Shown: positions 9,801-56,649 of the stretch, piece by piece
How positions within the stretch are numbered: the first letter of the stretch is position 1
Layout: every line of letters begins with the position of its first letter
Source of the DNA: Ulva prolifera
Taxonomy: Eukaryota > Chlorophyta > Ulvophyceae > Ulvales > Ulvaceae
Length of the DNA stretch: 64,000 nucleotides
Reading direction: 5' to 3'
Assembly (NCBI GenBank): GCA_023078555.1
Contig: JALAAN010000010.1
Span: forward strand, 1,426,001-1,490,000
Position numbers and translations under genes: made by a program
The notes under the pieces: generated by a model
Database searches by the model: none
The model's input: the letters and a program-made list of their open reading frames with translations, nothing else
What the model was told of the DNA's origin: nothing

Positions 9801-12800
9801 GTCCGCATTCACATGCACCAGCCGCGCGCCCTTGGCCGTCTCCACTAGCTCCAGCGCCACCACCGCCGCGGCGGACGCCGTCGCCGGTGGCGCGCTGCCC
9901 TGGCAGCGCTGCAGCACATCCGGCGCGTGCAGCAGCGGCGCCGCCGCCGGCGGCGGCGGCGTGCGCCGCGGGTGCTTCCGCCGGAATAGCTGCGCGGGCG
10001 TCTGCCCGAACTCGCGGATCTGGTCGAGCACGGCGCGCTGCATGCCGGCGTCGGGGAGGTCCGCGACGCAGACGGAGCCCTCGTAGGTGAGGGCATGGAA
10101 GACGTTGGCGGCGTCGACGGCGGCAGGGCCGCGCTGCTTGCAGCCGAAGATGAGGTCGATCCACTCGTGCAGGTGCGCCGAGACATAGTCGCTCTCCAGC
10201 GCCTCCCTGCACGCGGCAGCCGCCGGTTGTGTGCTCTGGGGTATGAGGCCCCACAGAGGAAGTGATGCAGAACAATGCAGTACTGACAGTTTTCTGGAGA
10301 AGGGTGTGGCTGAGGTGAGAGATCAAAGAAGAATGGGGTTGCCATGCAAAGGCGCCGCAGTTGGTCGGGCTCCGCGAGGGTGACAGTACAAAAACGCATG
10401 CCAATCGCAAACCCCCCGACATGCACCCTGGGCGCGCGGCCTCTCCCCGCACCCACTGCGCGCGGCCGCACAATCGCGCGTGCAGCTCCCACAACGCCGC
10501 ACGGCAGTCGCCGACACCGGCAGCAGATCGCCCACCCAACAACAGCGAGAGGCGGGGGCGCGCACCGGTGGATGCGGATGAACTCGTCGGGGCTGCCGGC
10601 GGCCCAGCGCGGGAGCTCGACGTCGTCGACGGCGGTGCCGGAGTGCGTGCGCCCGAGGTCGAGGCCCTCGGCGTTGCAGAGGAAGGCCGCGTTGTAGTAG
10701 AACTCCGGCACCATCTCCTTCACGTCGCTGCTGTTCTTGAGCACCTGCGTCCACGCGCGGGGCAGGCTCGTGAACAGCCGGTCCGCGTGGTCAAACCGCC
10801 CACCCTGCACCGCGATCGGCAGCCGTGATGCGGCAGGCTCTGTTGACCGGCAGAGTCGACGTACGGTAGGATTCACTAGCAATACCTTGTGCATGACCTT
10901 GGTAGTGGCCATGTGCCAGTAGCCACATGGACGAAAAAGGGGCGAACAACCGAAAACAAACCAATCCAGACAGCGGCGTGCTGTCAGTGGTGTCGGGCAG
11001 GTGTGTGCGGATGCGCGCGCACTTGCTCTACTGACCCTGCTGTGAAAGAAGCACAGCACTCAGTGCGACTCTGCTGGCATCGAGCTCACAGGTCGCCGAA
11101 GCAGAAAAACGTTGTAACTGTGACAGTGCTCAGGAAGCACACGCCAGAGATCAGCGTGCAACAGTGCAGCCAGAAACAGACACGCATGCCGGAAGAAGCG
11201 GCGCGTGACATTCGGAGCACGCTGAACAAGCACCTCAGCCTTGCGGGGAGAGGACGGGCTACAAGTGCTGCGGCCACTGCATGGCACAGCATCATCGCCA
11301 ACGACCAGGCGTTGCGATAAAGCACAGTGATCCAAACATCCACACAGCACGCACACGCAGGCAGCCAGCTCAGTGCTGCGTGGGGGCGGGGGCGCACCTG
11401 CAGCGAGCGCGCGAGCGCCGTGAAGGGCTCCATGCGCAGCAGGTACCACAGCACGATGCCCGCGGAGGAGTAGTGCGTGCCGTAGAAGAAGGGCGCGACG
11501 CTCTCGTCCTGCAGCAGGCTGTTGTAGCGCTCGTGGAAGCGCTCGAGGCGGTCCTCGTTGAGCGCGCCGATCGGCTTGCTCAGGTCGCGGAACGAGGCCG
11601 GGTCCGCGAGGTCGAGGCACTCTGAGTACCAGTCCTGCACGACCCAGGGGAAGACGGGGTACTGCGCGAGGTCGCAGTAGGAGCGGCCCGCGAGGGTGTT
11701 GAGTAACATGAGGTAATCGAAGTTGGACATGTCGCCGGAGGCCCAGCGCTTGGCGGCCGAGGCAGCGGCGGCGACGGTGCGGCGGCGGTCGAAGAAGGTG
11801 GCGTTGGGGACACCGGCGAAGACGGCGCCGCAGAGGACGTCGCGGTCGGCGGGGGTCGGCGCCGCGATGAGCGCCGGGGGGTGGCCGGAGAGGGGCAGGA
11901 AGTACAGGTGCAGGGCGCGCTGCTGCAGCAGGAAGCGCGCATGGTGCACCTCGGCCACATCTTCCAGTGACCTGCACGGACCGCTGGCTCACCGCTGTTG
12001 GCTTTCGGTGGGGCAGTGGCACGCACAGGATGACCACAGCCACCAGAGTCCTTGTGCAGCCACTGCAGTACAGGGCAGTGGCCACGCAGCACCATGGCAG
12101 CAATGCCTGCTTAACAAGAGCAAGCACGTACAGGCAGTAGGCCTGCACACATCCTGAAGCAAGGAGCGCAGCAGAGCCGGGCCTGCCAGCGGCGGATGCG
12201 CACCAGCTCCAGATGCGCGACCCCGCGGCAGCGTAAAACGCCAGCGTCGCCCCCCCCACCACCACCCGCCCGTCGATCTCCCCCCGCGGCGTGACCAGCA
12301 CGCAGCCATCGATCAGGACGCGCGCCGCGCCCCCGTGCGCCCCCCCAGCCACCGCCGGCTGCGTGTCGGACGGCGCCGCCAGCTCAAGTTCTACACGCGG
12401 CTCCCCCTTCGCGTCGACCGCAGCGTCGCCGCCGTCGGCCCCGTCCGCGGCGGCGCCCTCCTCCGCGTCCTCCTCCGGCACCTCGTCATCCGCCTCCTCC
12501 TGCAGCACCGTGTGCCGCGCCTGGCTGCCGAGTTTCTGCAACTCCTTCAGCGCATCGTCCTCCGTGCGCCGCACGCTGCTGCTTGGCTTGTCCTCGTCGT
12601 CGTACGGCCGGTGGTCGCGGTTGCGCTTCAGGTGCACCCGCCGCCGCAGCGCGTCCTCAATATTGGCCAGCTTCTCGTGCCGCTCCTCGTCGCCGCCCCG
12701 CCCGCCCTCAACATCCACCGGCGCCCATGCCTGCCGCTCCGCGGTCAGCCCGCGCAAAAGGTCGCGCAGCCGCCGCATCGCGGCGGCGTCCGTTGCGGCC

Positions 12801-15800
12801 GTGGCCGCCCCGCGCTCCGCGCGCCGCGTGGCGTCAGCGGCCGCAGCCGCGGCGAGCAGCGCCTCGGCACGCGCCGTCACCTCGCTGGCCCCTCCGGCCG
12901 GCTGCGCGATCGCCGCGATCGCCGCCGCATCCGCCGACTTGTCGGTCGCTTTGCGCCGCTCCAGGCTGTCGACGCGCCACAGCAGCTCCACCGCGGCGGC
13001 CGCCTGCGCGCGCATCGGCATGATGTTCGGCAGGATCGTGCCAACATCCTTTGGCTGGCGCAGCATGCTCGCGACCCGCATGCTGTCCCTCAAGCTATAC
13101 GCCACCGTCGCCTGGAACTGCACAATGAAGCTGTCCACGACGTACGACAGGTCCTTGCCGCCGTCTCGCCGCATCGTCGCACTCCGCCGCACCGTAGCCG
13201 AGGCATCTGTCACCGCCGCGGTCTCCTTGTCCGCCTCCAGCCGCGCGCGCTTCGCTTGGTGCAGCAGGAGGATGAAGAGGTGCACGTGGTTGAAATAGAG
13301 CGGGCCGAGGCGGTTGACCAGGGCGACAACGGCCGCGCCGCCGTCCTTGAACACCTTCTGCGCCGCCGGCAGCGGCTGCTCGAGCGCGCGCAGCAGCGCA
13401 AACATGCAGATGCGCAGCGGCAGGCTGCCCCGCCCCGCCGAGATCATTTCCCCCTCCATCTCCTTCGCGTCCCGCTGGAACGGCATCGCCGCCCCCGTCC
13501 CGCCGCCCACCTTCCACTCCCCGGGAGGCATGTCCGCCATGCTCACCCCGCCGCCGCCGTTGCCACCCGGGCTCTCAGGCGGCCGTGGCGGCGTCTGCGT
13601 GCCCGGCGCGCCGCCGCCGCCGACAGGGCCGCTACCGCCGCCGCCCTCGCCGGGCCGCGCGCCGCCGGTGACCGCGGCCACAAGCATCACGAACTTCCAC
13701 AGCGGCGGCAGCAGCAGCGACCACACCTCCGCTGGCAGCGGCGGCAGCACGAGCGGGCCCGCGGGGTCGTCCTCACCGCTGCCGCTGCTCGCCGGCGTCG
13801 CAGCCGCTGCCACCTCCTTCGGCGGCAGCACATGGAAGGTCGTCCACACCGCTGAGTGCAGGCACTCCCGCCGCTCCCCCGGCGTCGACTGCCCCATCGC
13901 CGTCGGCTCCGCCGTCATCCAGTGCTTGTGCGCCCATAGCAGCGCGTCCACGTTCGGCCGCACCTCCTCCACCGACACGAGCAGGCCCGGCAGGAAGAGC
14001 ACGCCTGCGAGGAACTCATGCATGACGGCCGCGGCGGCGACGATATTCGCCGCGCGGTGCTCCGGCAGCACCATGAGCCAGTCCTCGTCAGCGCGGTCGT
14101 CCGCCGCACCGGCCGGCTTGTGCGGCACAACAGCGCCGCCGTCGCGCATCGCGCGGCTCCACGCAGCCGGGTCACAGTTCACGAGCTCCTGCGCGATCTC
14201 AGACAGCAGCCACGCGAGCGCCGAGTCGCCCGCAAGCTCCCCCTCCGCATGCTTCCGGCGCAGCCCCGCCGTCACCGCGTTGACGTCGTTCGCGCCCTGC
14301 TCGCAGTGCAGCACGCTGTGCACGAGGAGCGACGAGAGGAGCGTGCGCGCGAGGGGATCGGCCTGCGGCAGCACGTGCCCCCCGGCCGTCGCCGCGCTGC
14401 GGCCGGTGGGAGGCGTCGCGGACGACGGCGTCGATGTCGACGAGGAGTAGCCGCCCCCGGCCTTCGGCAGCACCTCGAGTACCGGCAGGTACCACCCCGG
14501 CACCGACAGCATCGCCTTCTTGCTGTCGACGGACACCTCCACGAGTTTGCGGAAGCCCTCGAGCGCGGCCGTGCGGTGCTCCGTATCGCGGCACGCCGCG
14601 ATCAGCCGCAGCGTCGGCGCGATCAGCTCCTTGCAGCGCAGGCCCATTGGCTCCGAGACCGCGCACGCCGGGCCTGCACTCAGCAGGCCCAGCAGCGTGT
14701 CCCGCGTGTCGCCGTCGTGCAGCCGCCAGCACGACACGAGGCTGTTCGACACCTTGCGCCACATCGCCGTCTGCTCGGCGACAGACGGCGCGGCCGGCGC
14801 GAGCGGCACGATGAGCGCGAGAGCCGCGCAGCGCAGCGTGACGTCAGGGCGCGTCAGCAGCGGCAGGAACGGCAGCGCGCCGCCATGCGGCGCTGCGAGC
14901 GCGCGCAGCTGCTCCGCACGCTCCGGTGACGTGCAGGTCGTCTTGTGCACCTCCTGAATCATGTCCCGACCTTCCATCGTACTCGATCGTTGTGGTCTTG
15001 TTTTGCTCCAAGCATTCTGCTGTGTATGATAGTCAAACACAAGGCACAAAGCAGGACTCACACCGAGCTAGGCGTTCACATCTACAGATTCCAGTCACAC
15101 GGACACCAGCGTGCGCACAGGTGGCGAGGGCCGCACCTGCAGCAGCACCGCCAGCAGCCCGTCGTCCTCGCAGTCCGCGACCGCGGCCACCACGGCGCAG
15201 TAGTCCACGCCCGTCAGCCGCAGGAACCCGCCGGAGCGCATGCCCACCGCAGGCGTCAGCGCGAGCGTGCCGAGCAGTGCGATCGCGAGGTGCGCCGGCT
15301 GCGCCGGCCCGGCCGAGTCCGCACGCATGAGCGGCACGCTCACCGGCGCCGCCCCCAGCGCGTTCGTCGAGAACGCGTCCGGGCAGAGGAGGGTGCGGAG
15401 GCCGTCGAGGATCGCGGCAGGGGAGGTCGCGGCGTGAGCGGGAGACACGATGCCGGGGGCCGCCGCAACTGGCGCGCACGCCGCGTTGAGCAGCTGCCGC
15501 AGCGCGCGCAGCTCCTCCTCGGCCTTCGCGGCGTGCCACAGGCGCAGGTCCGCGAGGACGTGGCGCCAGATGGCGGCAGAGAGGTCGTGCGCTCCGGCGT
15601 TGGCGGCGGCCGTGGCGAGGCCGAAGAGCGCGCGCGTGCACCGCGAGTCGAGGTGCTCGAGGGCGACCATGCGTAGCAGTGCGCCAAACGCGGCGACAAG
15701 GGTGGCGCCGTCGCGCACCATCGCGTCGCGGTTGCTGCTGCACTCGAGTGCCCTCTACAGGCACGCTTACGTTGGTGTGGGCGGCCCTGCTGTGGAGCAG

Positions 15801-29334: not shown

Positions 29335-32300
29335 TCACACGGCGCCGGTGTCGATGATGGCGGACGTGCGGCGGCGGGAATCGCGGGGCTTGAAGCCGAT
29401 GCAGTCCTCGATGTCGAGCTCGCGGCTGCGCAGCGCGGAGATGAGCAGGGACAGCGGCGCGTTGTGCAGCACGCCGACGCCATTGTACTCCCTGCACGCA
29501 CACGCACGCCTCGTCAGCGACGGCTGCAGCGTGCGTAAATGCTCGTATGCTTTGTGCGTTTATGCGATCGCTTTTGTGCAGCGCGAGCCCGTGTTGCCAC
29601 GTAGCGGCGGCGCAGATGCCCCCCCCCGGCACGCACCTCAGACGGTAGGGCCTGTTGACGCAGCACATGTAGCTCTTGAGAGCATGCCCGAGATCACCCC
29701 CGGGACAATGGCAGCACGGCCGGGGAACATACGGAGGAGTGTTGCCGATGCACGCCGCGTGGGAGGAGGACGAGATATTTACACATGCAAGAGCCTTGGT
29801 TACGCGCATCTGAGGGTGGGGGGGCATTTGGGCAGGAGGGGGGAGCTTACGGCCGCTGGCGGCTATCCTGGTAGTTGCCCGCAGCGTCCGGGCCGTTGAC
29901 GAGGGCCCCCGTCAGCGTCTGGGCGTTCGCGCCGCCGCCGAAGCTCGACGGGCCGGCCTGCGGCCGCACGAGCGCCTGCCGCGGGAAACTGGCACCGTCG
30001 AAGTTCATCCCGACGATGAACGACTGCTGGTCGTCGTTCAGGCCGAGGATGTTCCTGCAGTTGTGCACGCCACCTCAGCACACCACGTCAGCGCCTTGCC
30101 GGCACGACACACAAGGACATCTGCAGTGACCCACACAGGGTCCTCGGCACTGCCGGCCATTGCACCGCGACGCCATCCTGGCCGGGGCCTCATGGCTGCA
30201 TCCATCCGGGGGCACCGTCATGCATTCTCCAAATCCACATGAACGCCAATTCCACAGCACGGCCCATGGATGGCCCGGCGTGTTCCTGATTGCGCAGGCC
30301 CGAAATCGCACGTATGCATGCACACCATGCATGCAGAGCACGCACCGCAGCTGGCCCTTGGCGAAGCACGAGGCGGCGCGATCCTCGGCGGACTCCTCGA
30401 GCTGTGTGGCCGCGTACACCATGACGTAGCTCATCGCGCGCACCGTCATCGGCAGCGGTCCGGGGGTGATGTAACCCGAGTCACCGCCGCTGGCCCACGT
30501 CGGGGGCGTGCTCGTCATGAGGTTGCCGCGCTCGCGGATCAGGTTCTCGTCGATGCCCTGGTGGTACTCGAACTCGCCGCGCCACGCGTCGACGAACCTC
30601 TGCACATGCCGGAGGGGGTGAGTCACACGTGGCACAGTGTCGGAGAGGCTGGTAGCACTGCAGGAACCAAGCACACACTAGCGGTGGTGTGTATGCATGT
30701 ATGCATGGCCACTTCATCGTATTCAGAGGGACATTGACAGCGTTCAGGGCAGCAGGGAGCGGGACTGGGAGTCGGCGTGTGACCATATACGCATGCATTA
30801 CATGCATGCAGTGCAGCCATGTCAAGCCGCTTCTCGCGCTCTTGACATGACACTCTGACAGCCAATCGAGCATTGTCCACAACCACAAACTCAACACAGC
30901 GCAGCCTGCGGCATGATGCAGGAGACAGGCGCTGAACTGCAGAGACGATGAACTACAAAGCGGGCACCGCAGCGGCGAGGCAGGGCGGGGCGTGCCTTGA
31001 GGTTGAGGCGGTAGCGGCTGTTGAGGGCATCGGCGTGGAAGAGCAGCACGTTGGCCATCCACCAGTGGTCGTCGACGGCGAGGCGGAAGTCCTCGAGCGC
31101 GCCGTAGCCGGTGCCGCCCTCGCGGGCGCGCTGAGCGCGTGCCTGCTGAGCGCGCGTGTAGTACCCGTTCACCGCGTTCCTGCACCAGCCCCGCACACTG
31201 ACTGCCTGCCGGCTCGCCTGATGGCGTATGCCCGTTGCCGCATGCGCACCCCCGTGCTGCGCCACAGCATTACCGACAACAGGAGCAGAGTTTAATCAAC
31301 CGTTTGACGGATGGAGCAGCTCGCCCCGACGGGGACTACACATCGCTCAAGTCAGAGCCCCCGACCACTAGATGCGGAGGGAAAAAAAAAGGGGGAGTGA
31401 GCGAAGATGGGGCTGCGGACAGGGGACACATCCCACGGTCTATTGCATGGGAGAGCGCCAGAAGAGACACCACGACACTGCAACCAGCACTGACAATTCG
31501 GACATCGACACACACGCACGCACACGCAGTGTCTCGTTGCCTGATTGCGGAAGGGGGCCAGCAGCAGGGCGCGCACTTGTAGCGGGCCTCCTTGCCGTCG
31601 CTGTACAGCATGAGCGCCGACGCGAGCAGCATGTCGTCAAAGAGCTCGGGCCCGCCCGCCGACGGCCAGAAGCTGCCGACGCTGAGGCTCGCGAGCGACT
31701 CCTCGTACGACATGATCGGCGCGCTCTCCATCAGCGTGAACGTCTGGTTCGCGCGCCGCCGCAGCTCGAAGACGAGGTCCTGCTCGCCGTACACGTTGAG
31801 CGACACCGTCAGCGCCGCGAAGGCCGCGGTGATCGCTGCAAACGTCTCCGTGCCAGGGTTCGTCTGGCTCAGCTTCTCAAACGCGGCGCCGCTGCGCTGC
31901 ACAGCACACAGCAACCGGCGTCACAGCACCGCGCGGCTCCGCTTGAGTGCTGATGTGCATGCGGACGGAGCGAGGCTAGCGTGGTAGCGGCTACAGCTAT
32001 GATTTCACAGGGGGATGCTCAATGTCAACACGCAGGGTGCTCTGCATCAAAGCTGCAACAGGGCAGCAGGCACACGTACGAGTGAAAAGAGCAATATCTG
32101 TGCAGTCCGCAAGAGCCGCCATTGGGATGTGGTGTTGCCACTCATGCAGTAGCACGGTGTGGGCAGAGGTGGCGGGGGCCGGCACCTGCTCGGGCGCAAT
32201 CCACTCGGCATTGGGGTTGGCGTTGAGGCCCTCCCTGGTGGCCACAACCGCGACGACGGTGTTTGCGACAGGGTCGTGGCAGTTGAGGAGGTACTGCGCG

Positions 32301-35300
32301 CCGTGAAGCAGCACGGCCTTGAGGTCGTCTGATGCTGAGGTGCCCCCCTGCAGGCCGGGCATCTTGCGCAGCTCCTCGTGGTGCGCGATCGCCGCGAACG
32401 ACAGGTCCACCATCATGATCGCCTGCACATTGCCAAACCGCGGCTGGCACGCACGGTCTTGACAGGATGCCACATACAGGGGGGCGGGGAGATGGGTGTG
32501 AAGGCTCACTGCAAGGAACAGAAAGAGACAGCAACAACAAGAGGCAGCAAGGCATGCATATAGAGCAGCGCAGCGCAGCGAGGACACAGACGTGGCCGTG
32601 GCGGTGCTTTCGTCTGCTTGCATGACACCATGCTCACTCAACAGGCACCGAACTCACACAGTCAGCGAGACACAAGCTACAAGGACTCGGGCCATCGCAT
32701 GGCGGAACACCAAGGCATGCTACCAGGCATCGCAACCAAAAGCAGCGATAGTGACAGCACGGCGGTGAGAGCACGAGCGAGGTGGAGGCCCCCGCAACCA
32801 AAAGCAGCGATAGTGACAGCACGGCGGTGAGAGCACGAGCGAGGTGGAGGCCCCCGCAGCCAAAAGCAGTGATCGTGACAGCACGGCGGTGAGAGCAGGA
32901 GCGAGGTGGAGGCCCCCGCACCTGGGGGTAGGTGAACTTAGACAGCCCCGGGCCGGTGTACCAGCCGCCCGCGAGCGAGCGCTCCCCATCAACCACGTCC
33001 ACGTCCGACGCCTCGCGCCACGGCACGGCGCCGTTGTCGTAGCGCTCGCCGGCCGCCATCGCGCTGAGGAAGGCCATGTGGCCGCGGTGCACCTCGTCGA
33101 GGTCGTACAGGCTGTTGCGGGTGTCGAGGACGGCGGTGGAGAGGAAGGGCAACGCGCCGACGAGGGCGACGATGAGGAGCGAGAGGAGGATGAGGACGGA
33201 TGCGACGGCGCGGTTCGCGAGCACGGCGGCGAAGCGGCCGATGTACGAGAGGTAGAGCAGCGCGGCGATGAGGATGTAGAGGCCGAGGAGGCCCGAAGAG
33301 AGGGTCCTGCAAGCAGCGCTTGTGACACGATGCATGCGGCCGCCGGTGGCAGCGCAGGTGGGATGATCGGACGGTGGGTTGCTGATGCTACGCGCCACCG
33401 GGGCTGTGATGTGGAGCAGCGGTGCACCGGCCCAGCTTGACCACTGGAGACGCAGCTGCGTCGAGGGCAGCAGAGATGACCGTGTGGGGGGACACGCGTG
33501 GGCGTGACGTGCGGGCCCTGCTGCGGTGGTGCCGGAGAGGCTGGCGTGGCCAGTGCAAGTTGGTCTGTGCTACGGGACCGCCTGGAGGTAGTGGTATGTT
33601 GTGGTGTCGCTGCTCCTTGTGCCGGTGTTGTCTATGGCAATGTGCTGTAATTTGTGCTGATGCTCTGCCACACAATGGCCCGAGATCGTGTACCTTGTTC
33701 AGGTAGTGTCAGGGCTGTAGGAGGAACAGTCAGTCACTGTCCCTGCCAGCAGATGAAGCCCTACCCTCATGCGGGAGGAGGGCCAGGGCGTTGTCTGCAG
33801 GCAGACGTAACAGTGTCCACAGCTGCCTGCGATTGAAGCTCAGCAGAGTGCGAGACGTCCAGAGTGCGACTCTGGTGTTCGATCGTGTATGGAAGATAGA
33901 CACTGGAGCGTGGGAATGGCATGTGCACTGCACTGTGTGCAAGGCCTGCCAGCTGTGGCTGTGCTGTCAGGCACCCGCATGCATGGCCCTCCAGCTGACA
34001 AACAAACAGCAGCTGACAAACAAACATGCACAACCACTGACACCATTCCGCCTCAGCAGACACCACCTGCCTGCTCGAAGCGGCACATTCACCTGCCCAC
34101 CACCATGATCCACATGCAACGAAAACGGTTGAGTGTGGGTCCCTTGCTGGGCCACCGCCTCGCTGAGCAGAGTTTCAAGGCTATGCAGGCTTCAACGCAT
34201 GCATGCATGGGTGCCAGCAAGCTTGACCACCGAGGCAGGGGCAGCGGCAGCAGCAGCATCATCCCGCAGTCAGACATGATGCCAGATGAAAACGAAGCTC
34301 ACCAGGACAGCAACCTACCACTGCCAGGACAACCCTGGAGATTGAGCATGTGTTGTGTGACAGGGACAGGAAGTCAGAGAGGCAGGTAGCACAGCATGCG
34401 CAGCATGAGCTGCCTGACATTGTCCTGCTGACAGCATTCTACCGCCAACACACGACCGCAAGCTTCAGGATGATCTCAGACAGTCGCCATGCTGATAGGC
34501 TTATCAGGAGTGTGCTACCTCGTGTGGCTGTGGTGGTGCACACTGTTGAATTTACACTTGCTTGCTGATACATGAGAGCACATCATGACCCACAACGGCA
34601 GAGCCAGGCGAGAGCCAGGCAACCAGGGGGCAGTGCATGGGGGCGCACCAGGAGCGTGCGGCGATGATCTCGAGCAGCGAATAGTTGTCCGGCGACTGCG
34701 AGCCAAACACCTTGTCAAAAGAGAGCCAGATGGAGAGCAGGGACACGAGGATGAGCATCACGACGACGGGCACGCTCGCGCCCTTGACGAAGGCGTGTGG
34801 CCGGTGGCGGTCGCCCTTGCCCGTGCGCTTGTTGGCCTTCGCCGCCGGCGCCTTGAATTTCGGCACCACCAGCTGCACACCACGGGCGGCTTGCCTTGAA
34901 GCAACACCTGGGGTACCCTCCAGAAATGAAGCCTAAATATTCAAAAACGACAGCAGGCCTCGACGATAGCACGGGTATCAGGCGGAGGGGCAGGCAGGCG
35001 GCGAACCTTCTCGGGCTTCGTGCGGGGCAGCAAGTTGCGCTTGTCACGCTTGATCTTGTCCTTGCCACCCTTCCCCTTCTCGGCGCTCGGCGAGCTGCGC
35101 GCACCGCCGGAGCCGTTCGGGCCGCCGCTCGCGAAGCTTGCGGCGTCAACCTCCGCGGGGGGCGTGTCCGAGGGCGACGCGGGGTCCTGCGGCGGCGGGG
35201 GCCGCTTCTTCGAGAACATGCCCTCGGCGACCGGGCCGCCCTGCTCCTCGCCTGCGCCCATCTCCGGCACCGAAACCTCACTGCACGCGTGACTCTTGTG

Positions 35301-38300
35301 TGACCTCGCCCGACGAAAATTGTCAACGGTTCGACGATCACACTGCCGGCGCATGCAGTTCCCAATGGAAGAGCGTGCATCTCTCGCAGAGAACAGCCGA
35401 GCCCGAATTGAACATGCAGATGTGAGGAGGCATGCGTCGAGTAGACAGGTTCAGCGACGCAACACCGGGCCGCCCGGGCAGGGGTGGTGCAGGGGGGCGG
35501 CCGCACATCTCGCTGTGGGTGCCGTAGGCCTCCATGATCGCCATGCCCGGGCCGCGGCGGGCGCGGCGCAGCTTCTCACGCTCCTTCGCCTGCCGCTCCG
35601 CCTCCTTCTTCTTCGTCTTGGCCTCTGCGGCCTCGAGCTTCTTGCGCTCGAGCTCGCGCTTCTTCAGCACCGACTCCTGCTGCTGCTTCAGCTTCTTCTC
35701 GGCCGCATCCGTCGCGGCCTTCTCCTTCGCCTCGCTCACCTTCAGCTTCTGCAGATCACCCCGGGGCGCCGGTCAACATGTGATGTGGCAGCCGCCGCGG
35801 CGCCTGGGCACGGCACTCCGCTGACCGCACATAGGCCCACGCGGCACACATACGGAAATCGACTCCGCTGCCCGCATGGCAACATGACAGAAGAGCCGGC
35901 CAATGGCGGCAGGTGGATAGCCCCTCAATGTCAATTAGAAATCATGCTGGCAGTTCTGCTACGTACAGGCAGGGACGAATGCACGCCGGTGTGCCACAGA
36001 TGCTGCGCAGGACCCCACGAGGGCGACACCACACAGCGCAACCTCCTGCAGACTCACAAACACAGGCAGCCTGGCCTCCCCCGCGGGCGCACCTGCTTCT
36101 GCATGACGTCCTCCTTCGCCTCGCGCTGCTTCTCCTTGTACGTCACCAGGTCGGCCGTCGTCGTCTCACCGACGGCGCGGAAGTGACCGCGCCGGTCGAC
36201 GCCGAAGCGTGAGAGGTTGAGGAAGTAGAGCCAGGCGTGCGCGGGCGCGAGCACGCGGTTGCGCATGACGTTGCCGATCAGCCCCGACGCGGCGGCCGAG
36301 TACGGCGTGACGAGGTGGAAGAAAATCATCGAGAGGTAGTGCACGAGGAAGGCTCCCGCGACGAGGCGGCTTTGCGTCGACCACGGCGCGATGTTGCCGA
36401 CCGTCGTGATGAGGATGACAGCGACGAGCGTGGCCTCGAAGAAGACGGTCGCGCGCGCGGCATCGTGCGGCGCGCGCATCGGGTTGTGCAGGTTCCACGA
36501 CAGGAAGGGCCGCTCGCGGTCGAAGATGAGCGCGACGTCGAAGCCCTCCGCCTGCCGGTCGAGCACCTACAGCGCAGCGGCTTCGAAATCAGAAAAAAAT
36601 GTTGCTACGTGCATGAGCGGCACGGGTGCTGGGAAAATGTACCGATGGGGACATGTGGCATGCCGTGCACAGGACTGATGGGGCGGCGTTCAGAGACACC
36701 CACGTGCGTCAGAGCGTCAGCGCAGGGGCAAGCGAGGGAGCGCCCTCCGGCCAAGGAGGCATGCGGTGAGTTCTGGCTATGTGTCTAGACGAAGACCCGC
36801 GGTGAACAGTTTTGCAGAGGGCCGCCGCAGCAGTGACGGCGGGGGGGGGGGACCTGGGAGAGCACGGTCGGGGGGTGTGTCGGAGCGAGGACGGAGGTGA
36901 TGGGCGCGTGCATCGTCATTGCGGCGAGCGACGCCTGCCGGCCCTCGATGTGCATCGCGTACGAGATCCAGCCGAGGTACGCCGTGTCGACGTTCTCCAT
37001 CTCCATGCGCCGCAGCACGCGCCACAGCGAGTACCCCCGCGACATGAACGCCGAGCTGTTGACGGCGTAGCGGCCGTCGGCGCCGATGGCCGAGAGGTGC
37101 ACGCGCTCGCGCGCAAAGTTCCCGACGTCGAGGAAGTCGGTCGAGGCCGGCTGGTTGCGGGTGTGCGTCGGCGTGGACACCGCCGCGAAGCCCGGCTGCT
37201 GTAGCTGTGCGACGGCAAAGGAGTAGTAGCTCTGCATACGGAGGCTGGGCCGGGTGAACGCATGACGGTGTCTGGCAGCTGCCGCCATGAGCGGGCCGGG
37301 GCCGGGGATGAGCGCCGGCGCGCACCGGCACCTGGACTCGAGCGACTGCATCGGCGATGCCGACGCGGGTGCATCTGCACATCGGCACAAGCAAAGCGCA
37401 CCGATACAGCGTGAAGTGTCCCGGGGAGGACGTCACCGCACTTCGCCGAGCCTGGCGCTCCCCGCCACCGGAGCGCCGTGCCCTCTTGGGCGGGCACAAT
37501 AAAGCGGGGCATGCGAGACGAGTTGACACGCGCACTGGCCATGCATGCATTAGGAGAGGAAAAGGTCCGCACCTCGGGGTCGACGACGGAGGAGGCTGGC
37601 ATGCACACGATGGCGGCATTGGAGATGGCGTGCGAGTACTGAAGGAAGAGGCGGTCGAGGGTGTAAAAGAGGACCTGCCCGAGGTACATGTTCTCCTCGA
37701 GCACGACGTTCAGCGCCGCCTGCACCTCCTCGTCCTGCACAGCACGCAGCATGGCCCCTCAGCCACTGCTCGCGGCACACCCCCAAACGCTGAGCTGCAC
37801 CGAATCGCTACAGTGTGAGCGTGCTCGCCGTGACCGCGTGCCGCTGCGAGCGCAGGAGAGAGGCCCGGTGGCATAAGCTTTCCGCACAAAAGGCATGCCG
37901 CACAAACGGCACGGCGGAACCCCTCAGTGACAGGCTAGCCGCCAGGGTCGCGTGCAAGCAGAGCGCCCCATCGCATGCCGCACCTGCGCATTCATGACGT
38001 ATTCCTGCCGCGCAAGCTCCTCCTTTGAGAACAGCAGCACATTGGGGAACTCCTGCGCGAGCGCGTCGTGCGCCTCCTTCGCCGGCCCACTCGCTGTGTC
38101 GCACACGAGCACGACGCGGAAGGGCAGGTCCGGCTTCGCGGCGCCGTAGTGGCTGCGCGCGCTCTCCACGATCGTCGCCACGGCCTCGTCGGTGACGATG
38201 AGGAGCGTGATGATGTCATCGGCGTGGAAGGGCGTGTCACGCTTCGAGCGCGGCATCGCCTCAAGGCGCTGGCGGCGCGTGCGCGACACGATCGACGAGC

Positions 38301-39868
38301 AGGAGGACACGCCGTACACAATCTCTGCGAGGATGATGACGATGCGGTAGAACGTCTGGCTCGAGTCGTTCTCCTGCACCGCGGCACGCCGTCTGGAGTA
38401 AGGCGGCAGCCGGGCGGTGGCGGGGCGCGGGTGTGATGCGTGCGTGTCACAACATGAGTATGCATGTAAACATGAGGCAAGGTAGAGACCACAATGAGAC
38501 TGGCACCTCGAGTGCGCCAGCGGTGCGATGCTCACATGAATAGATGAGGCGTAGCGCTGTAGCAGTGCGGGTTTCAGGGCAGTGTGCCTGGCTGTTCGGC
38601 ACCCCTGACCTGCGGCACTCACTCCGCCTAGCATCTGACGCCACCTCCGCGCTGACAGTCCGGACGCAGACACCCACACGCCAGTACTGTGCCTTTGCAT
38701 ACTGTGCTACGCACTCACAGAGAGGCAAGAAGCTCAGCAGCATGGGTGCGAGGCAGACGGCCGGCAGCCCGGGCGCGCACCTTCTGGTGGATGTTGACGA
38801 TGACGTCCCACATCCGCAGACCGGCGTACGCAAGCAGCGTGAGGGTTGCGATCAGGAGGTAGATCTTCACAGGCAGGCTCTCGGCGACCGGCAGCTGCAG
38901 GCCGGCCTCCGCACTGTCGTCGGGGTCCACCGGCCGCCGGTTGGCCTTCATCGCGGAGGAGGGGTCGCTGCCGCTCGTCGACTGCGGCTCTGGCGGCACA
39001 GGGGGGCTGCCGTATGCGGTCTCGAGGTCGCCGGCCTGGAAGGCATGCAGGCGGCCCAGCAGGTGCTTCACCGCCGACTCGTCCTCTTGGACCGGTGGGT
39101 CCGCTGCAAGGCGGGGGGTGTCATGCATGCGTTGGGCCAGGCGCGACTTCGGCGCGGTGCCGACTGTGGCGGGGAGGCCACAGGGATCGGGGAGTTCGCG
39201 TCGGGACTGGCGAAAATCGGCGCGGTGGAGCGTGCCACGTCGATTTGTTTCCAGCGGATCCGAGGCGCAAAGAACATAATGGTGCAGGTAACGCTGTTGG
39301 CAACTGTCAGTCATGCCAAAAGCCAGAGCAACGTGACGGCATCATAGTCATGTCAAATGTGCACATCACCACGTGTATATTATACTCTGGCCGTCGCAGG
39401 CCGAGGAGGGCTGCAGCAGGACGCGATGCAGCGCCGAATGCATGTATCCGCTGCAACCAGGTGTGGAACTAGATGGACCAAAACATACCAAAGTACATCT
39501 TGCCAACGGCTTCTGCTATTCCGTCTTCTTCAAAGATTGCGCCAAGTGCTGTGACACTCTCCGCGTCCGCTGTATCGTTCTTCAGGTAATCTCGAACTTG
39601 ATGGGCTTCGCGCAACGCTAGGGTCACATTCTCGGAGCTGAATATGGGTCCACTAGCCTATACACACAACAGATCAGCCTGGTACAACACGATCGGGTGC
39701 ATCCAGGTGGCCCTAGATGGGCGGTGCTGCAAGGCGCGCACGCACCTTGATCTCACTACCTAGCTGCTTCAGCGCATCTGGGCCACTATTTGCAACTCGC
39801 TGAATTGCATTTAGCAGCGAGGTTGCTGTGGGATTCATCGCAAACTGGCTCTGGCCAGCTGACGCCAT
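29335..39868 (-). CDS. Membrane fusion of a GT2-like glycosyltransferase domain and a GH9-like domain
   Basis: Predicted polytopic membrane protein of about 1,440 residues. Exons, 5' to 3': 39746-39868 (start MASAGQSQF), 38781-39105 (5' edge uncertain), 37984-38373, 37573-37734, 36854-37231, 36093-36566, 35507-35758, 35007-35280, 34649-34872, 32932-33306, 32186-32422, 31577-31896, 30996-31179, 30346-30599, 29851-30054, 29335-29491 (TGA). Codon phase matches at every junction except the first. Layout: two N-terminal helices, GT2-like domain, two helices, charged coiled linker, three helices, GH9-like domain, short tail. This fits a cytosolic glycosyltransferase-like half and an extracellular glucanase-like half, as in cellulose synthesis machines. 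Key catalytic motifs of both halves are altered, so activity is doubtful. Related families: GT2 (CesA/BcsA superfamily) and GH9. Confidence 0.8.
29380..32990 (-). other. GH9-like domain lacking the catalytic acids
   Basis: Recognisable GH9 landmarks in order: LAGGWYTGPGLSKFTYP (compare GGWYDAGDxxKF), QYLLNCHDPVANTVVAV and EWIAPEQV (DYLLKxH and W-PE region), FAAITAAFAALTVSL, GGPELFDDMLLASALMLYSD (the DELxWAAxWLY helix), GPLPMTVRAMSYVMVYA (WGxLRYAxNxAF region), QSFIVGMNFDGASFPRQ (SYxVGYGxNFPxxxHHR), GALVNGPDAAGNYQDSR (GGPDxxDxYxDxR), then NGVGVLHNA aligned without gaps to NEVAxDYNA. Both Asp of DAGD and the Glu of NEVA are therefore absent (Thr, Gly and Gly). The overall fold seems intact. Confidence 0.82.
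32674..33696. repeat. Dispersed repeat copies 3 and 4 (GT2-GH9 introns)
   Basis: Copy 3 at 32674-32755, minus orientation (GGACTCGGGCCATCGCATGG, CATGCTACCAGGCATCGCAA on plus). Copy 4 at 33655-33696, plus orientation (CTCTGCCACACAATGGCCCG). They share the CAATGGCCCGAG core and flanks with the copies at 24-25, 50 and 52-53 kb. Confidence 0.6.
32733..32918. repeat. Three tandem copies of a 62-base unit next to a 5' splice site
   Basis: Copies at 32733-32794, 32795-32856 and 32857-32918 (the first two are nearly identical; the third differs at a few bases). They lie in the intron between exons 32932-33306 and 32186-32422. The last copy ends about 14 bases from the donor (CAG|GTGCGGGGGCC in sense), and each unit reproduces the TGCGGGGGCC that follows that donor without the GT. 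The first unit abuts a copy of the dispersed repeat. Confidence 0.95.
33000..36460 (-). other. Coiled linker and second membrane bundle joining the GT2- and GH9-like halves
   Basis: After the second helix pair comes a long Lys/Glu/Ala segment (EKQREAKEDVMQKQ, EKKLKQQQESVLKKRELERK, RQAKEREKLRRARRG) likely to form a coiled coil, then a Pro/Gly/Lys-rich tail, then helix VPVVVMLILVSLLSIWL (exon 34649-34872) and helices GLYILIAALLYLSYIG and VLILLSLLIVALVGALPF (exon 32932-33306). An odd number of helices here would put the following GH9-like domain outside the cytosol. Confidence 0.65.
36460..38250 (-). other. GT2-like domain with altered catalytic motifs
   Basis: GT-A type pattern: DIITLLIVTDEAVATIVESA (compare the VTVLIPAYNEE start of GT2), FRVVLVCDTASG (first Asp region), NAAIVCMPASSVVDPE (where GT2 has a DAD-SVVDP motif; here PAS replaces DxD), QPGFAAVSTPTHTRNQ (the VQTPQ region), ENVDTAYLGWISYAM (the TEDxxLG region) and SQVLDRQAEGFDVAL (at the QxxRW position). 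Preceded by helices VKIYLLIATLTLLAYAGL and FYRIVIILAEIVYG, and followed by FFEATLVAVILITTVG and FLVHYLSMIFFHLV, as in BcsA/CesA-like synthases. The motif alignment is by eye. Confidence 0.65.
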
Positions 39869-51616: not shown

Positions 51617-54149
51617 TCACGCGGCCGCCGCGTCCAGGCTCTCCTCCTGGCCGGCCTTGCCGCCGGGGGAGGCGCGCTTCACGATCGCCTCGAACTGGGC
51701 GCACGCGACGTACGCGATGACCATGAAGGCCGCGCAGAGCATGAACATCACCGACAGCGGGTACGCGCTCACGTTGTACAGCACGATGCAGACGAAGAGG
51801 TTGAGGGGCACGCGGAAGCAGTTGATGAGGGTCGCACGCATCTCGTCGGGGAGGTAGTGCGCGCGCATGCGCATCATGCTCGGCCAGAACAGCCCGATGC
51901 ACACCTCAAACACGAAAAACGCGACGCACTGGATCATGCCGGCGGTCGTGATGTCGTCGAGCGGCGCGTCCGGGTCGGCCGCGTCGCCTGAGCGCGACTG
52001 GTGGAACGCGACGGGGACCGACATGCATGCGGCGGCGAGCAGGAAGACCCACTGCATGTAGCGCTCGGGGGCGAGGCCGACGGCAAGGAAGTGGCCGGCG
52101 ATGGCGGAGCCGGCCATCGAGGCGACCATGAAGGTCGCGAAGATGTAGCCGTGCTGGATGCGCTCACCATTCGGCGCGAGCGCCGGCGTCCACAGGAACA
52201 CAAACGTGTACATTGCGCCCTCAAACACCGCCTGCAGACATCCCCGCGTGCGCTTGGAGGCGGTCTCTGGAGGACGCTCCGGTGCTCGGCTATGCAATGG
52301 CCCGAGCTTGTGTAATCGATTGTTTGCGGCGGCGGCGCGGCGGGATACCGGTGCCGGAGCCTCACACATGGGCGAGGGCCCGCGGGTGGCCACCGGCGTG
52401 CAGTCTGGGCAGCTAGAGCATCTCTCACATCACGGCGCTGAAGCCTGTGAGGACGTAGTGGCCTGGTCTGAGGCAACCACGTCCCTGACCAGAAACGCGC
52501 GGCCACACAGCGGCAGCCACGGCTGACATATTTTGGCCTACCGGCTGCACAGCGGACAGTCCACGGCACATGGGAGGGGCAGACTGAGCACGCCGGCGCA
52601 GAACATCGGGCTAGGGCAGGGTCGCGCGGGCCATGGGCTGGGTCCAGTGTGCACAGAGAGATTGCCAGCGCATAGCTCACCATGGCAGGGGCAGGCGGGG
52701 GGGGGGGCGGGGGGGGGGGCAGGCAGGGGGGGGGGGGGAGGTGCACACCTGCATGAGGCCGAGGAGGAAGACCTTGCGGTCGCTGCGGATGCAGTCGAGG
52801 GCCTCGGAGAACTGCGCGACGAGGCTGTGGCTGCTCGCCGAGTTGCCGTAGTTCTCGCCCCAGCGAAGGTAGATGATGGCGCCGCCGATGGCGAGGATGA
52901 CGGCGGCGGCGTCGAAGGGTGCGACGGGGCCGAGCGCCAGCGGCTCGACGAGCGTGTTGGCGAGGAGGCCGGAGAGGATGGCGACGAGGCCGTTGCCGAG
53001 CATGACGGCGCGCGAGAAGGTGTCGCCGAGCCAGTCCTCGTCAAAGCCACGCTGCATGGAGGGGGGGGAGATAGAATCACAACAGCCCAGGCCATAGCAT
53101 GGCAGCGGACCGCAGCATGCCACCCAGCATCGCAATCATGGACGCAGCGGTGGTGGCAAAGGAATTCCAGCAGCTCAGGGGGTGTGATGGCGCTTGCAGA
53201 GGACTGTGATGAGCCATGCAGGTGTTGCGGGGCTTGTGCCTATGAAGCGCAGGACACGGACGTCTCTGTCGAGGCATGCACTCTGAGATAATGGTTGCTG
53301 TCGCAGCAGTACTGTCGACAACATCTCTGCATGAGGCCCAGGTAGTCGAAAGGCCAGGAGGGAGTGGAGATGGGGTCAGGTCATGCTGATGTTAAACCAG
53401 ATGCTCACCTGGTTGTGTTCTGAAACGAGCCAGGACTCGAAGGCAGAGAAGAGCAGAGAAGTCGCAATGCCGCCGAAGAATCGACCCAGCATCAGGATCC
53501 AGTAGTTCGGAGAGTGTTTGGTGAAACAGCTGGCCATGTAAAACAAGACGTACGCCAGACCAGCCAGCTTGCGGCCACTGCACATGATCATCCCATGTCA
53601 AGCCATAACCCAGCATGATCCTGACCATGGCAGGGACATCGCCGTGGTCACTCCATCGAGCACTGACATAGTGCTGTAGACAGATGGCCTGACGACAGAT
53701 GCCGGAACGCCAGTGCACCGTCGCGGTGTGCACCCATGGACAGGCAAGGCTCACTCCAGGAAGAGCGCACTGCTTGTCCGCCAATGTGCCTGCGATTGTA
53801 CCAAATATCATGCTTGATCCGAAACCAGCAATGAACAGCCTTCCGATGTCACCCACCTCGTATCCGTAGTGCTGGTACAAAGCGTAGACGTATGGGCCTT
53901 GGAGCCAGTCGCCGGCTGCAAAGCTGCAATATTTCAGGCAATTCCTCCTTGGAAAACAGCAGTTGACTTGCAGAGCGTTCCCAGAAGCGCACCCATCATG
54001 AGACTGTACACAAACAGGTAGTTGTCCCTGAAGGACAGGAAGGACTTGTTTCCCGCATACGGCTTGGGAGCTGAGGTGCTCTTGAACCATTCTAAGAAAG
54101 CTGTGCATGCTGCAAGCACGCAAAACGTAACTATGTAGAACGGATTCAT
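51617..54149 (-). CDS. MOT2: Molybdate-anion transporter of the MOT2/MFSD5 family
   Basis: Major-facilitator membrane protein for molybdate uptake, supplying molybdenum-cofactor enzymes such as nitrate reductase. Exons: 53993-54149, 53771-53915, 53409-53577, 52749-53051, 51617-52231 (TGA), phases consistent; 462 residues, the normal size. Start MNPFYIVTFCVLAACTAFLE (first helix). Family signatures: GDWLQGPYVYALYQHYGY, GRLFIAGFGSSMIFGTIAG, LADKHGRK, TKHSPNYWILMLGRFFGGIA, TSLLFSAFESWLVSEHNQ, then RGFDEDWLGDTFS, AVFEGAMYTFVFLWTPAL and GYIFATFMVASMAGSAIAGH, giving about twelve helices. The gene is intact. The first three exons are much less GC-rich than the last two. The fourth intron begins with a long C-run. 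Function is from family knowledge (Chlamydomonas MOT2, human MFSD5). Confidence 0.93.
52283..53150. repeat. Dispersed repeat copies 6 and 7 (MOT2 introns)
   Basis: Copy 6 at 52283-52318 (CGGCTATGCAATGGCCCGAG, CTTGTGTAAT), plus orientation, in the last intron. Copy 7 at 53088-53150, minus orientation and more diverged (in reverse complement GCTGCCATGCTATGGCC, TTGTGATTC), in the intron between exons 53409-53577 and 52749-53051. Confidence 0.5.
52694..52740. repeat. Long poly-G tracts on plus (C-runs in MOT2 sense)
   Basis: Three G-runs of roughly nine to thirteen bases separated by C or CAGGCA, immediately inside the intron whose donor is at 52748. In the MOT2 pre-mRNA this is a C-rich tract right after GTGTGC. 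The plus strand could form a G-quadruplex. Run lengths in assemblies of such tracts are unreliable. Confidence 0.8.
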
Positions 54150-56649
54150 TGCGACGATTCACGTCGAGTTGCCGTGCTACCAAGTTCCTTCGAGCATTCC
54201 TTGCCGCGGACACCCACCTACAACTACAAGAGTGAATATAGAGAGCACCTGTGAATGTGTGGCAATTGCATTAATCGGATATGATCAATTGACGACGTCC
54301 ACTCCGACAACCGGTACCGAACCACCTCCTGTCGCTTGTGCATGCATCCGTGGGCCGCGGCGCGCTGTGCACTTCGTACACAGCTCGGCCCTCAGCATGA
54401 TATCGTGATGACAGTCCCAGCTTTGGCGTCTGCGTCACACACTTCCGCATGATGAAATTCCGCAGCAGCGATTCCTGCTCGCGATTGCGTCAGTGTCCGT
54501 CTGGCGCAAGCGCGAGAGCAGACAAAATCCCGAGCAAACCAGCCACCGCAGGGTGTAGGGTACCTGGAGCCCGCGGGAACTCTCAAGATTAAGACGATGC
54601 TTGTGCCAAAGTTCCACCTTGATCCCATGTTAAATCTCGCTGCAGGTCTCGTTCGTCGCTTGCTGAGGCATTTCCAAGCTTCCGTGCGGAAACGCGTTTA
54701 TGCCATTGGTGGACGTATTTTACCCCGTTAACTCGTGGCCCGTTCGGCCTCGCACACGTGCAACGAACATGCAACGTCCGGACGCGTCCATCTCCTGGTC
54801 TGCAGCAAACTGTGTAAGTGCAGCTGCGTGCAGGCACCATCTTCAGCCTGTAGAGCCTCGTGAACATTCCTTGCCCATGTCGGGACGCATCGTCGTTACA
54901 GAGGCTCTGCAAAACGTTTTCTTGTGATGTGTCGCGGAACTGCTGCGCTCGAATGAGAAATCCCGCCGTCTCCAAACAGTCACTATAGACCATGGCCTTG
55001 TAGCTGTTCGTGAGAATCTAGATCACCGCGCACTGACGTCCCCTGCGAGGTGTTTTAGTGACACGACATAGTGCGTCCACCTCGGCTAGATCTACGCGAG
55101 TCCCGAACCTCTAGTCCTCCATGCAAATCTCCGAGAGACGGTGCGAGTAGGCATGTTTTTGCTGGTTAGCCGCATGGTCGATTTCAAACCTTCATGGACA
55201 TACTATTCTGGACCACATTTGTGTGCACATTCGCATGGATCCGCCCAGGGCTGCACCCGTCCTCGAGCCTTGCGATTGCATGTGCACAGTGCTTCGGTCT
55301 GAGCTCTGGTACCTCTTTCGAAGACCAAGTCGATTGCCTTGGCGTGATTTTCGCTTGCCAGTGTACACTCCCTTGACCTGTCGCGGCTCGGTGCTCTGCG
55401 AACAAGACCTGAAATTGTGGGTCTCGACGGAAATGGTGGGTGTACACAATCTTGTTGTGCACCTGTCGCAGCTATGGCCAAGTGGCGCCAGTTGTGCTGC
55501 TTGTCCAACTGTCTGTGTCCTCGTTGCCTAATGATCAGTTCTGGTCATGGTGCCTGAATTGCCTGCTCAGTTCTCTGCCATGGCTTAGACACAGCAGTGA
55601 CGTGTCCAGCTCACAGTGATGCTGTCATGTTCAAGAGGAGGCACTGATGCGCCTGCTGCACCAGCGCTGGTGCCCAGCAGCTTTCCAGTAAGCGGGATGG
55701 AACATTTACAACCTCTGCTGCGTGGCAAGGCAAAGCACTACACGTCTGCTGGATACATGGTGCATTGTCCTGGATGTCACACTTCTCAGCTCACAACAGG
55801 AACGTTTTGAAACAAACCAAAACACACGCTGCCAAACACAAAACCACAAAGCACCCAGCAAACCCGCCATCAACGTGGCTGCGCTGAGATGCCCCTTGAT
55901 GGTGTGTGCATATGCCCTGGATGCAGGCTCAGGTATCAGCTGAAATAACTGCCGCTGATGGGCAATGCCAGATGTCCGAGTGGCACGCAATCAAGCAAAG
56001 ATGGGCACCAACGCCAGCAGGTTGCCATGTCAAGGTCCAGCAATAGGCGCTGATACATTTGGTCCCGTCGAAAAGTGGTCCCGACCAAACCGTCTGAGGA
56101 CACATTCGCAGTGACCAAGCATCTGTGCAGTTGCATGCACCAGTGTTGTGAGTGGCACCGCCTGAGATGAGACTTGGCTCGAATCGGGCGACTGCACCAT
56201 CATCGATTACCCGGCGTTGATGATGTAGATGTACCAGTAGGCGACCAGGCGTACACTGCCTGGCCGTAGGCCGACAGAAAAGTCTCTTTTGACACAATGA
56301 ATCCACCACCCGTAGCCAGTTGCACCGCCCGAAAACGTGAGATCACTGCGGTGAGTCACTGGCTCATGCAGATCTTGGGGCCGAAACTCCAGACGAGTCC
56401 TCACAGCCCTCCTGAAACACAGCAGGTTCCACACCCACAGACCCGCGCGCCATACATCACAAGCACCGCTGCAGTCTTGCCAGTGTGAGTGGCTATAGCC
56501 CACGCGCAATCATCATCATGTCCAGCTGCCCAACCTGCTGTGCCAAGGGAGTGAGGCACCAGCCAGTGGATACACCGCTTGCCCACAGCTTCTGCAGAAA
56601 GTCGCTGAATGCCTGAAAGTAGCACGTCCTCTGTGTACCGTGTCCACGC
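54150..56649. other. Intergenic region between MOT2 and the CFAP99-like gene
   Basis: About 2.5 kb of roughly 50 percent GC, holding the MOT2 promoter side and the 3' flank of the CFAP99-like gene. A 134-codon minus frame (54589-54993) and three overlapping frames at 55190-55530 on both strands look like chance. Nothing here resembles a known family. Confidence 0.5.

Follow-up and report, generated by a model that had tools for sequence, protein, structure and literature searches.

The 64,000-nucleotide window analysed here (G000:C10:1426001-1490000, in an assembly of 88.9 Mb and 44 contigs) comes from the green alga Ulva prolifera. An LHCII-type protein indicates a plastid of the green lineage; a search for the RuBisCO large subunit found no match. 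On its minus strand the window carries a real gene that, as judged from the DNA itself, most likely encodes a single protein chain, in which an N-terminal membrane part resembling glycosyltransferase family 2 (GT2) is joined through a charged linker to a C-terminal domain of glycoside hydrolase family 9 (GH9). The reading that we favour, with a probability of roughly 0.6, is that the protein is a derived member of a family that combines a BcsA-type GT2 synthase, seven membrane helices and a GH9 fold, that it is devoid of either active site, and that it would act without catalysis, as a partner, scaffold or glucan sensor. Five further fusions in the same genome provide the framework for this interpretation.

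Structure of the gene

The gene extends from an ATG at 39868 to a stop codon ending at 29335, and these outer limits are those given by an earlier, sequence-only reading of the same DNA. It comprises 18 exons and 17 introns (Table 1), and the spliced frame has 1504 residues; by our own estimate, that many open codons are far beyond chance at the local GC content. The phase-compatible, multi-exon gene on the minus strand described in the sequence-only reading stands, with all 17 intron phases compatible, AG at 17 of 17 acceptors (gtgcag at nine) and GT at 16 of 17 donors; 11 donors start gtgcg, and GC is used once, after 30996. The number of exons has been corrected from 16 to 18, and the end of exon 11, first placed at 32932, was found at 32922. 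Two details of the model involve a choice. Exon 3 has four open acceptors in the right phase (39163, 39103, 39085 and 38989), of which 39103 was chosen for its TTGCAG; a start at 39163 (CACAG) is identical in phase and would add 20 residues. The 15-nt exon 17 (29651-29637) was placed solely by phase and by the spacing of the GH9 C-terminal motifs.

The junction that unites the two halves leads from 34649 to 33306 across intron 10, and phase, splice consensus and homology argue for it. A pair of neighbouring genes, namely one of ten exons for a membrane protein and another, GH9-like, that begins at ATG 33335 and retains two helices, appears quite improbable. This ATG is in frame and directly upstream of exon 11, intron 10 is 1342 nt long, and the first in-frame stop past exon 10 sits in TGTAA (34556-34552), the usual poly(A) signal of green algae, all of which speak for two genes. 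However, the donor that follows 34649 agrees in phase with the acceptor at 33306 (TTGCAG), a split would leave five plus two helices in place of the 2+2+3 arrangement that the joined protein has in common with the five other fusions, and the GH9 domain is sister to fused GH9 domains in a rooted tree (see below). The single GT2-GH9 chain of the sequence-only reading is thus strengthened by five paralogues that share it and by fitting phases and splice sites, with ATG 33335 marking where a separate GH9 gene might yet begin. Because the stop after exon 10 lies within TGTAA, intron retention could also yield a short form of the protein that ends before GH9.

The C-terminal half and its GH9 domain

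The C-terminal half matches the Pfam family Glyco_hydro_9 (PF00759) with E=7.3e-41 and 141 bits (cut-off 27.7) over profile positions 7-426 of 444, which bears out its earlier assignment as GH9-like. A phmmer search with this half retrieved 12 distinct PDB sequences, all of them named cellulases, glucanases or endoglucanases. Catalysis by GH9 enzymes involves the Asp pair of a DAGD motif and a C-terminal Glu. In the PDB alignments the window sequence GGWYTGPGLSKF stands opposite GGWYDAGDHVKF, which places TGPG at the position of DAGD, so that both Asp residues are missing. The column of the C-terminal Glu is occupied by Gly, and a Glu is found three columns off (PPYRLRE), in a region where the nearby 15-nt exon is uncertain. 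The HR of the HHR motif is likewise missing, and the Trp of WxxPE is kept. When the two halves of the protein were compared with their own genome by tblastn, the window gene was the sole match of each.

Six fusions with a common helix layout

A profile search of the genome gave 36 matches to GH9 and seven to Glyco_trans_2_3, three of which (C3, C4 and C8) adjoin GH9 matches. Five fusion paralogues were modelled with a custom spliced aligner, comprising these three and two on C1 (C1b and C1c), and the genome may hold further fusions beyond the six. The C8 model matches bacterial BcsA (1.7e-21). Of the three paralogue models run against Pfam, C8 and C3 each exceed the cut-offs of both GT2 families and GH9 within a single chain, and C1b exceeds that of GH9 only. 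In C8 an intron-free frame (L026:8965-9999) covers the helices after the GT2 domain through to the start of GH9, and in this paralogue the join between helices and GH9 is therefore free of any splicing assumption.

According to hydropathy, the window protein and all five paralogues have seven membrane helices arranged as 2+2+3 around the GT domain, with GH9 after the last; this count sets aside hydropathy windows within GH9 and, in the window protein, one at residues 259-277 of the alpha/beta domain. The interval between the helix pairs, which holds the GT stretch, measures 319 residues in the window protein versus 309-320 in the paralogues, and that between helices four and five 277 versus 60-68. 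Given seven helices and a cytosolic N-terminus, the GH9 part would lie outside. In a GH9 tree rooted with one bacterial GH9, the window domain is sister to those of the five fusions (support 92/91).

On both C3 (5364000-5383999; L022, L023) and C4 (868000-887999; L024, L025) the fusion is followed by a free GH9 gene in the same orientation, an identical order that would suit duplication of the two genes as a unit. The free gene behind the C3 fusion has DAGG and lacks the Glu, and the one behind the C4 fusion keeps DAGD and Glu. On the minus strand of C5 (9568015-9642035), seven matches to the C-terminal part of the GH9 profile (about 377-444) fall within about 75 kb, which suggests a tandem array of GH9 genes. 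The genome profile search found no Glyco_trans_2_3 match near the GH9 matches on C5 and C7; these gave no good models and were left out of the tree.

Descent of the N-terminal half

The link between the N-terminal half of the window protein and GT2 is supported by a deep profile and by the helix layout, not by ordinary searches. The profile was built from 14 GT2 sequences, that is C3, C4, C8 and 11 bacterial proteins picked from 40 of the 461 plasmid matches to the GT2 part of C3, four of them annotated as cellulose synthase. Using hhalign, the GT part of the window protein aligned with this BcsA-type profile in colinear fashion, with a score of 38.5, P=5e-4 and a probability of 31%. None of 297 controls matched this score, the top value being 28.8; they consisted of 250 block-shuffled sequences and a reversed one, the five proteins of free GH9 genes, the GH9 half of the window protein and 40 open reading frames of the window (at least 250 residues, outside the gene). 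Another 30 shuffles peaked at 24.9, and the degenerate paralogues, included as positive controls, reached 406 (C1b) and 226 (C1c).

A number of results weigh against this kinship. The deep-profile signal was the fifth attempt at detecting GT2 similarity and came after four negatives: a Pfam search of the N-terminal half found no GT2 family, a PDB sequence search returned a single match to an unrelated protein (E=0.46), a profile made from the GT parts of the five other fusions did not detect it, and Smith-Waterman comparison, assessed by shuffles, was negative. On the side of GH9, a tree without the outgroup places the window domain on a long branch between fused and free GH9, its identity to fused domains (18.9-22.2%) is no closer than that to free ones (18.7-24.9%), and the insertions typical of the five fusions are lacking. 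The four negative tests, the lack of insertions and the similar identities would suit a GH9-like domain that was independently joined to a membrane protein other than GT2. We consider this unlikely, since the deep-profile signal is in register, the helix spacing matches and GH9 occupies a sister position, and we prefer descent from a GT2-GH9 ancestor. The GT2-like domain of the first analysis thus escaped Pfam, PDB and the five-member profile, and is supported by the deep profile and the helix layout.

Structure prediction was applied to single exons without an alignment. The AlphaFold2 model of exon 4 shows strands that alternate with helices at a mediocre predicted local distance difference test score (pLDDT) of 61, and that of exon 6 (pLDDT 43) is unusable. 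With the exon 4 model, Foldseek found nothing under E 0.15; 18 of the 50 matches listed, out of 804, are named glycosyltransferases or polysaccharide synthases, a count that includes RmlT, which we take to be one of them. VIA-align of the same model has other alpha/beta folds at the top and one glycosyltransferase (AvpGT) among the 50 matches listed. In prokaryote and viral contigs, scanned with two short peptide patterns each time, none with a GT2 alignment was confirmed. The window protein also gave Pfam matches to ABC2_membrane (E 0.005 and 0.077) under the cut-off of that family, which we put down to helix composition.

State of the active sites

GT2 synthases are characterized by the motifs CDDG, DxD, TED and QxxRW. 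These are intact in three of the six fusions, where C3, C4 and C8 have CDDG, DAD, TED and QQRSRW, and they are altered in C1b and C1c. In the window protein, the profile alignment shows CDTA for CDDG and PAS for DAD, and TED and QxxRW are without counterpart. DAGD is absent at the aligned place from all six GH9 domains; Glu occupies the position of the second Asp in C8, C1b and C1c, and an Asp lies beside that of the first in C3, C4 and C8. The C-terminal Glu is missing in all five other fusions, four of which keep the HR of HHR (C3 has HHG), and the Trp of WxxPE, aligned to YWGAPE of bacterial GH9, is kept in all six. Among the five free-standing GH9 proteins that were modelled, C1d, C3b and C4b keep both DAGD and Glu, in C3a the motif reads DAGG and the Glu is absent, and C1a has EAGN with the Glu kept.

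With its GT2 motifs missing and TGPG in place of DAGD, the window gene is unlikely to encode a synthase or a cellulase. A role in polysaccharide synthesis, sensing or wall remodelling had been proposed from the sequence; of these, sensing or remodelling would be possible for a non-catalytic protein. An active enzyme with altered chemistry, such as a transglycosylase, a hydrolase whose base is displaced or a synthase that uses a non-canonical metal site, seems very improbable: the Glu three columns away from the GH9 acid position, and in the paralogues the Glu at the second Asp position or the Asp next to the first, could be read in its favour, but in the window protein TGPG takes the place of DAGD, and none of CDDG, DxD, TED and QxxRW is matched by an intact motif.

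The two halves have diverged to different degrees. C3 and C4 are 71.3% identical in the GT part versus 53.7% in GH9, and C1b and C1c, both without GT2 motifs, 47.1% versus 65.0%. The stronger divergence of the GT half in C1b and C1c suggests that constraint on it is relaxed, as if, with a dead GT half, the GH9 half were the part still conserved. This pattern agrees with a GH9 fold that has been retained for a non-catalytic function.

Exon coordinates and neighbouring genes

Table 1. Exons of the fusion gene in window coordinates, with the features that each contributes.
Feature	Position	Strand	Content and evidence
Exon 1	39746..39868	-	ATG 39868, soluble N-terminal part; open frame, donor gtgcgt
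Exon 2	39489..39657	-	soluble N-terminal part; phase 0 in, phase 1 out
Exon 3	38781..39103	-	end of N-terminal part, membrane helix 1 (residues 174-192); acceptor TTGCAG, hydropathy
Exon 4	37984..38373	-	membrane helix 2 (216-234), first half of GT2-like alpha/beta domain; CDTA 38103-38092 versus CDDG
Exon 5	37573..37734	-	GT2-like domain; PAS 37599-37591 where the DxD motif DAD is expected
Exon 6	36854..37231	-	GT2-like domain; no TED motif
Exon 7	36093..36566	-	last part of GT2-like domain, QxxRW absent; membrane helices 554-572 and 583-601
Exon 8	35507..35748	-	coiled linker, Lys/Glu-rich
Exon 9	35007..35280	-	linker, low-complexity
Exon 10	34649..34872	-	membrane helix 879-897
Exon 11	32922..33306	-	membrane helices 931-949 and 954-972, GH9 start; TGPG 32957-32946 versus DAGD
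Exon 12	32186..32422	-	GH9
Exon 13	31577..31896	-	GH9
Exon 14	30996..31179	-	GH9; GC donor
Exon 15	30346..30599	-	GH9
Exon 16	29851..30054	-	GH9
Exon 17	29637..29651	-	15 nt, placed by phase and spacing
Exon 18	29335..29491	-	GH9 end and stop codon

By eye, the start of intron 11 (32735-32921) shows a unit of about 62 bases repeated in tandem about three times, and the first copy includes the splice donor. Elsewhere in the window, an open frame on the minus strand (9848-11059) contains a BEACH domain (PF02138, E=3.6e-27); beside it, a frame of 1335 residues (11063-15067) has no Pfam match at E 1e-4. Another minus-strand frame (53395-54270) matches the MFS_5 transporter family (PF05631, E=3.7e-24).

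Comparison with known systems

In bacteria, BcsA acts together with the separate subunits BcsB and BcsZ. The likeness lies in the BcsA-type GT2 of the paralogues of the window gene; the bacterial system differs in having several chains and a GH8 enzyme, whereas the window gene encodes one chain with a GH9 domain and no intact active site. KORRIGAN, the membrane GH9 of the plant cellulose synthase complex, is a separate and active enzyme. It resembles the window protein as a membrane-anchored GH9 tied to glucan synthesis, but the window GH9 is fused and without DAGD.

Closer relatives are found in another green alga. The 2012 genome paper on Coccomyxa subellipsoidea C-169 describes four of nine GH9 proteins as having an attached cellulose-synthase-like domain (PMC3446292). 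This kind of fusion is hence already in print, and the unfamiliarity of a GT2-GH9 chain noted in the sequence-only reading does not hold. Likeness to the window gene extends to a GH9 domain with a synthase-like domain, in several copies, in a green alga. The window gene differs in its lack of intact GT2 motifs, its long charged linker and a GH9 without DAGD, a comparison in which Coccomyxa is represented by a description that, in the part available, leaves catalytic residues unmentioned. A literature search, with most subscription journals outside its coverage, found no statement on the catalytic residues of algal fused GH9 domains.

Tunicates provide an instructive parallel. According to a study of tunicates, CesA combines GT2 with a GH6 domain in which a catalytic Asp is missing and which probably has no function, the free GH6-1 keeps the catalytic Asp in many tunicates, and CesA is required for tunicate cellulose (PMC10334666), from which it follows that its GT2 works. 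As in the window gene, a synthase part is followed by a cellulase-family domain without catalytic Asp, and a separate gene for a free hydrolase keeps that residue, in tunicates in many species. The tunicate protein differs in having GH6 rather than GH9 and a working GT2, whereas the GT half of the window protein is degenerate as well. What is new is the state of the domains, here in a doubly degenerate form; the main interest attaches to how the six genes compare and to the tunicate parallel, and less to the fusion, which is of a known, if little studied, kind.

A possible glucan-binding role for the fused GH9 fold

Where the GT2 motifs are intact, the synthase would extrude its beta-glucan chain directly onto the GH9 fold. 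As the fused GH9 probably does not cleave in the usual manner, it may bind or guide the chain instead. The window protein, with neither active site, would accompany these paralogous synthases without catalysis of its own, as their partner, scaffold or glucan sensor; it is probably a helper or glucan-binding subunit and not an enzyme, and its Lys/Glu-rich linker could offer an additional contact surface of its own. A broader scenario, drawn by analogy and rather tentative, is that green algae resemble tunicates in having fused a bacterial-type synthase to a cellulase fold, with catalysis then lost and the fold kept as the outer part that receives the chain; some members, including the window protein, would have lost the synthase site too and become pseudo-synthase subunits of mixed complexes.

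Fusions of synthases with cellulases pose the question of why glucan synthases would require the latter. Should the fused GH9 be inactive in all cases, as the tunicate GH6 seems to be, it would be the fold and not hydrolysis that matters, probably for chain binding. With three fusions that have GT2 motifs, three that do not and some free GH9 genes with DAGD and Glu, this alga holds a built-in comparison for that question.
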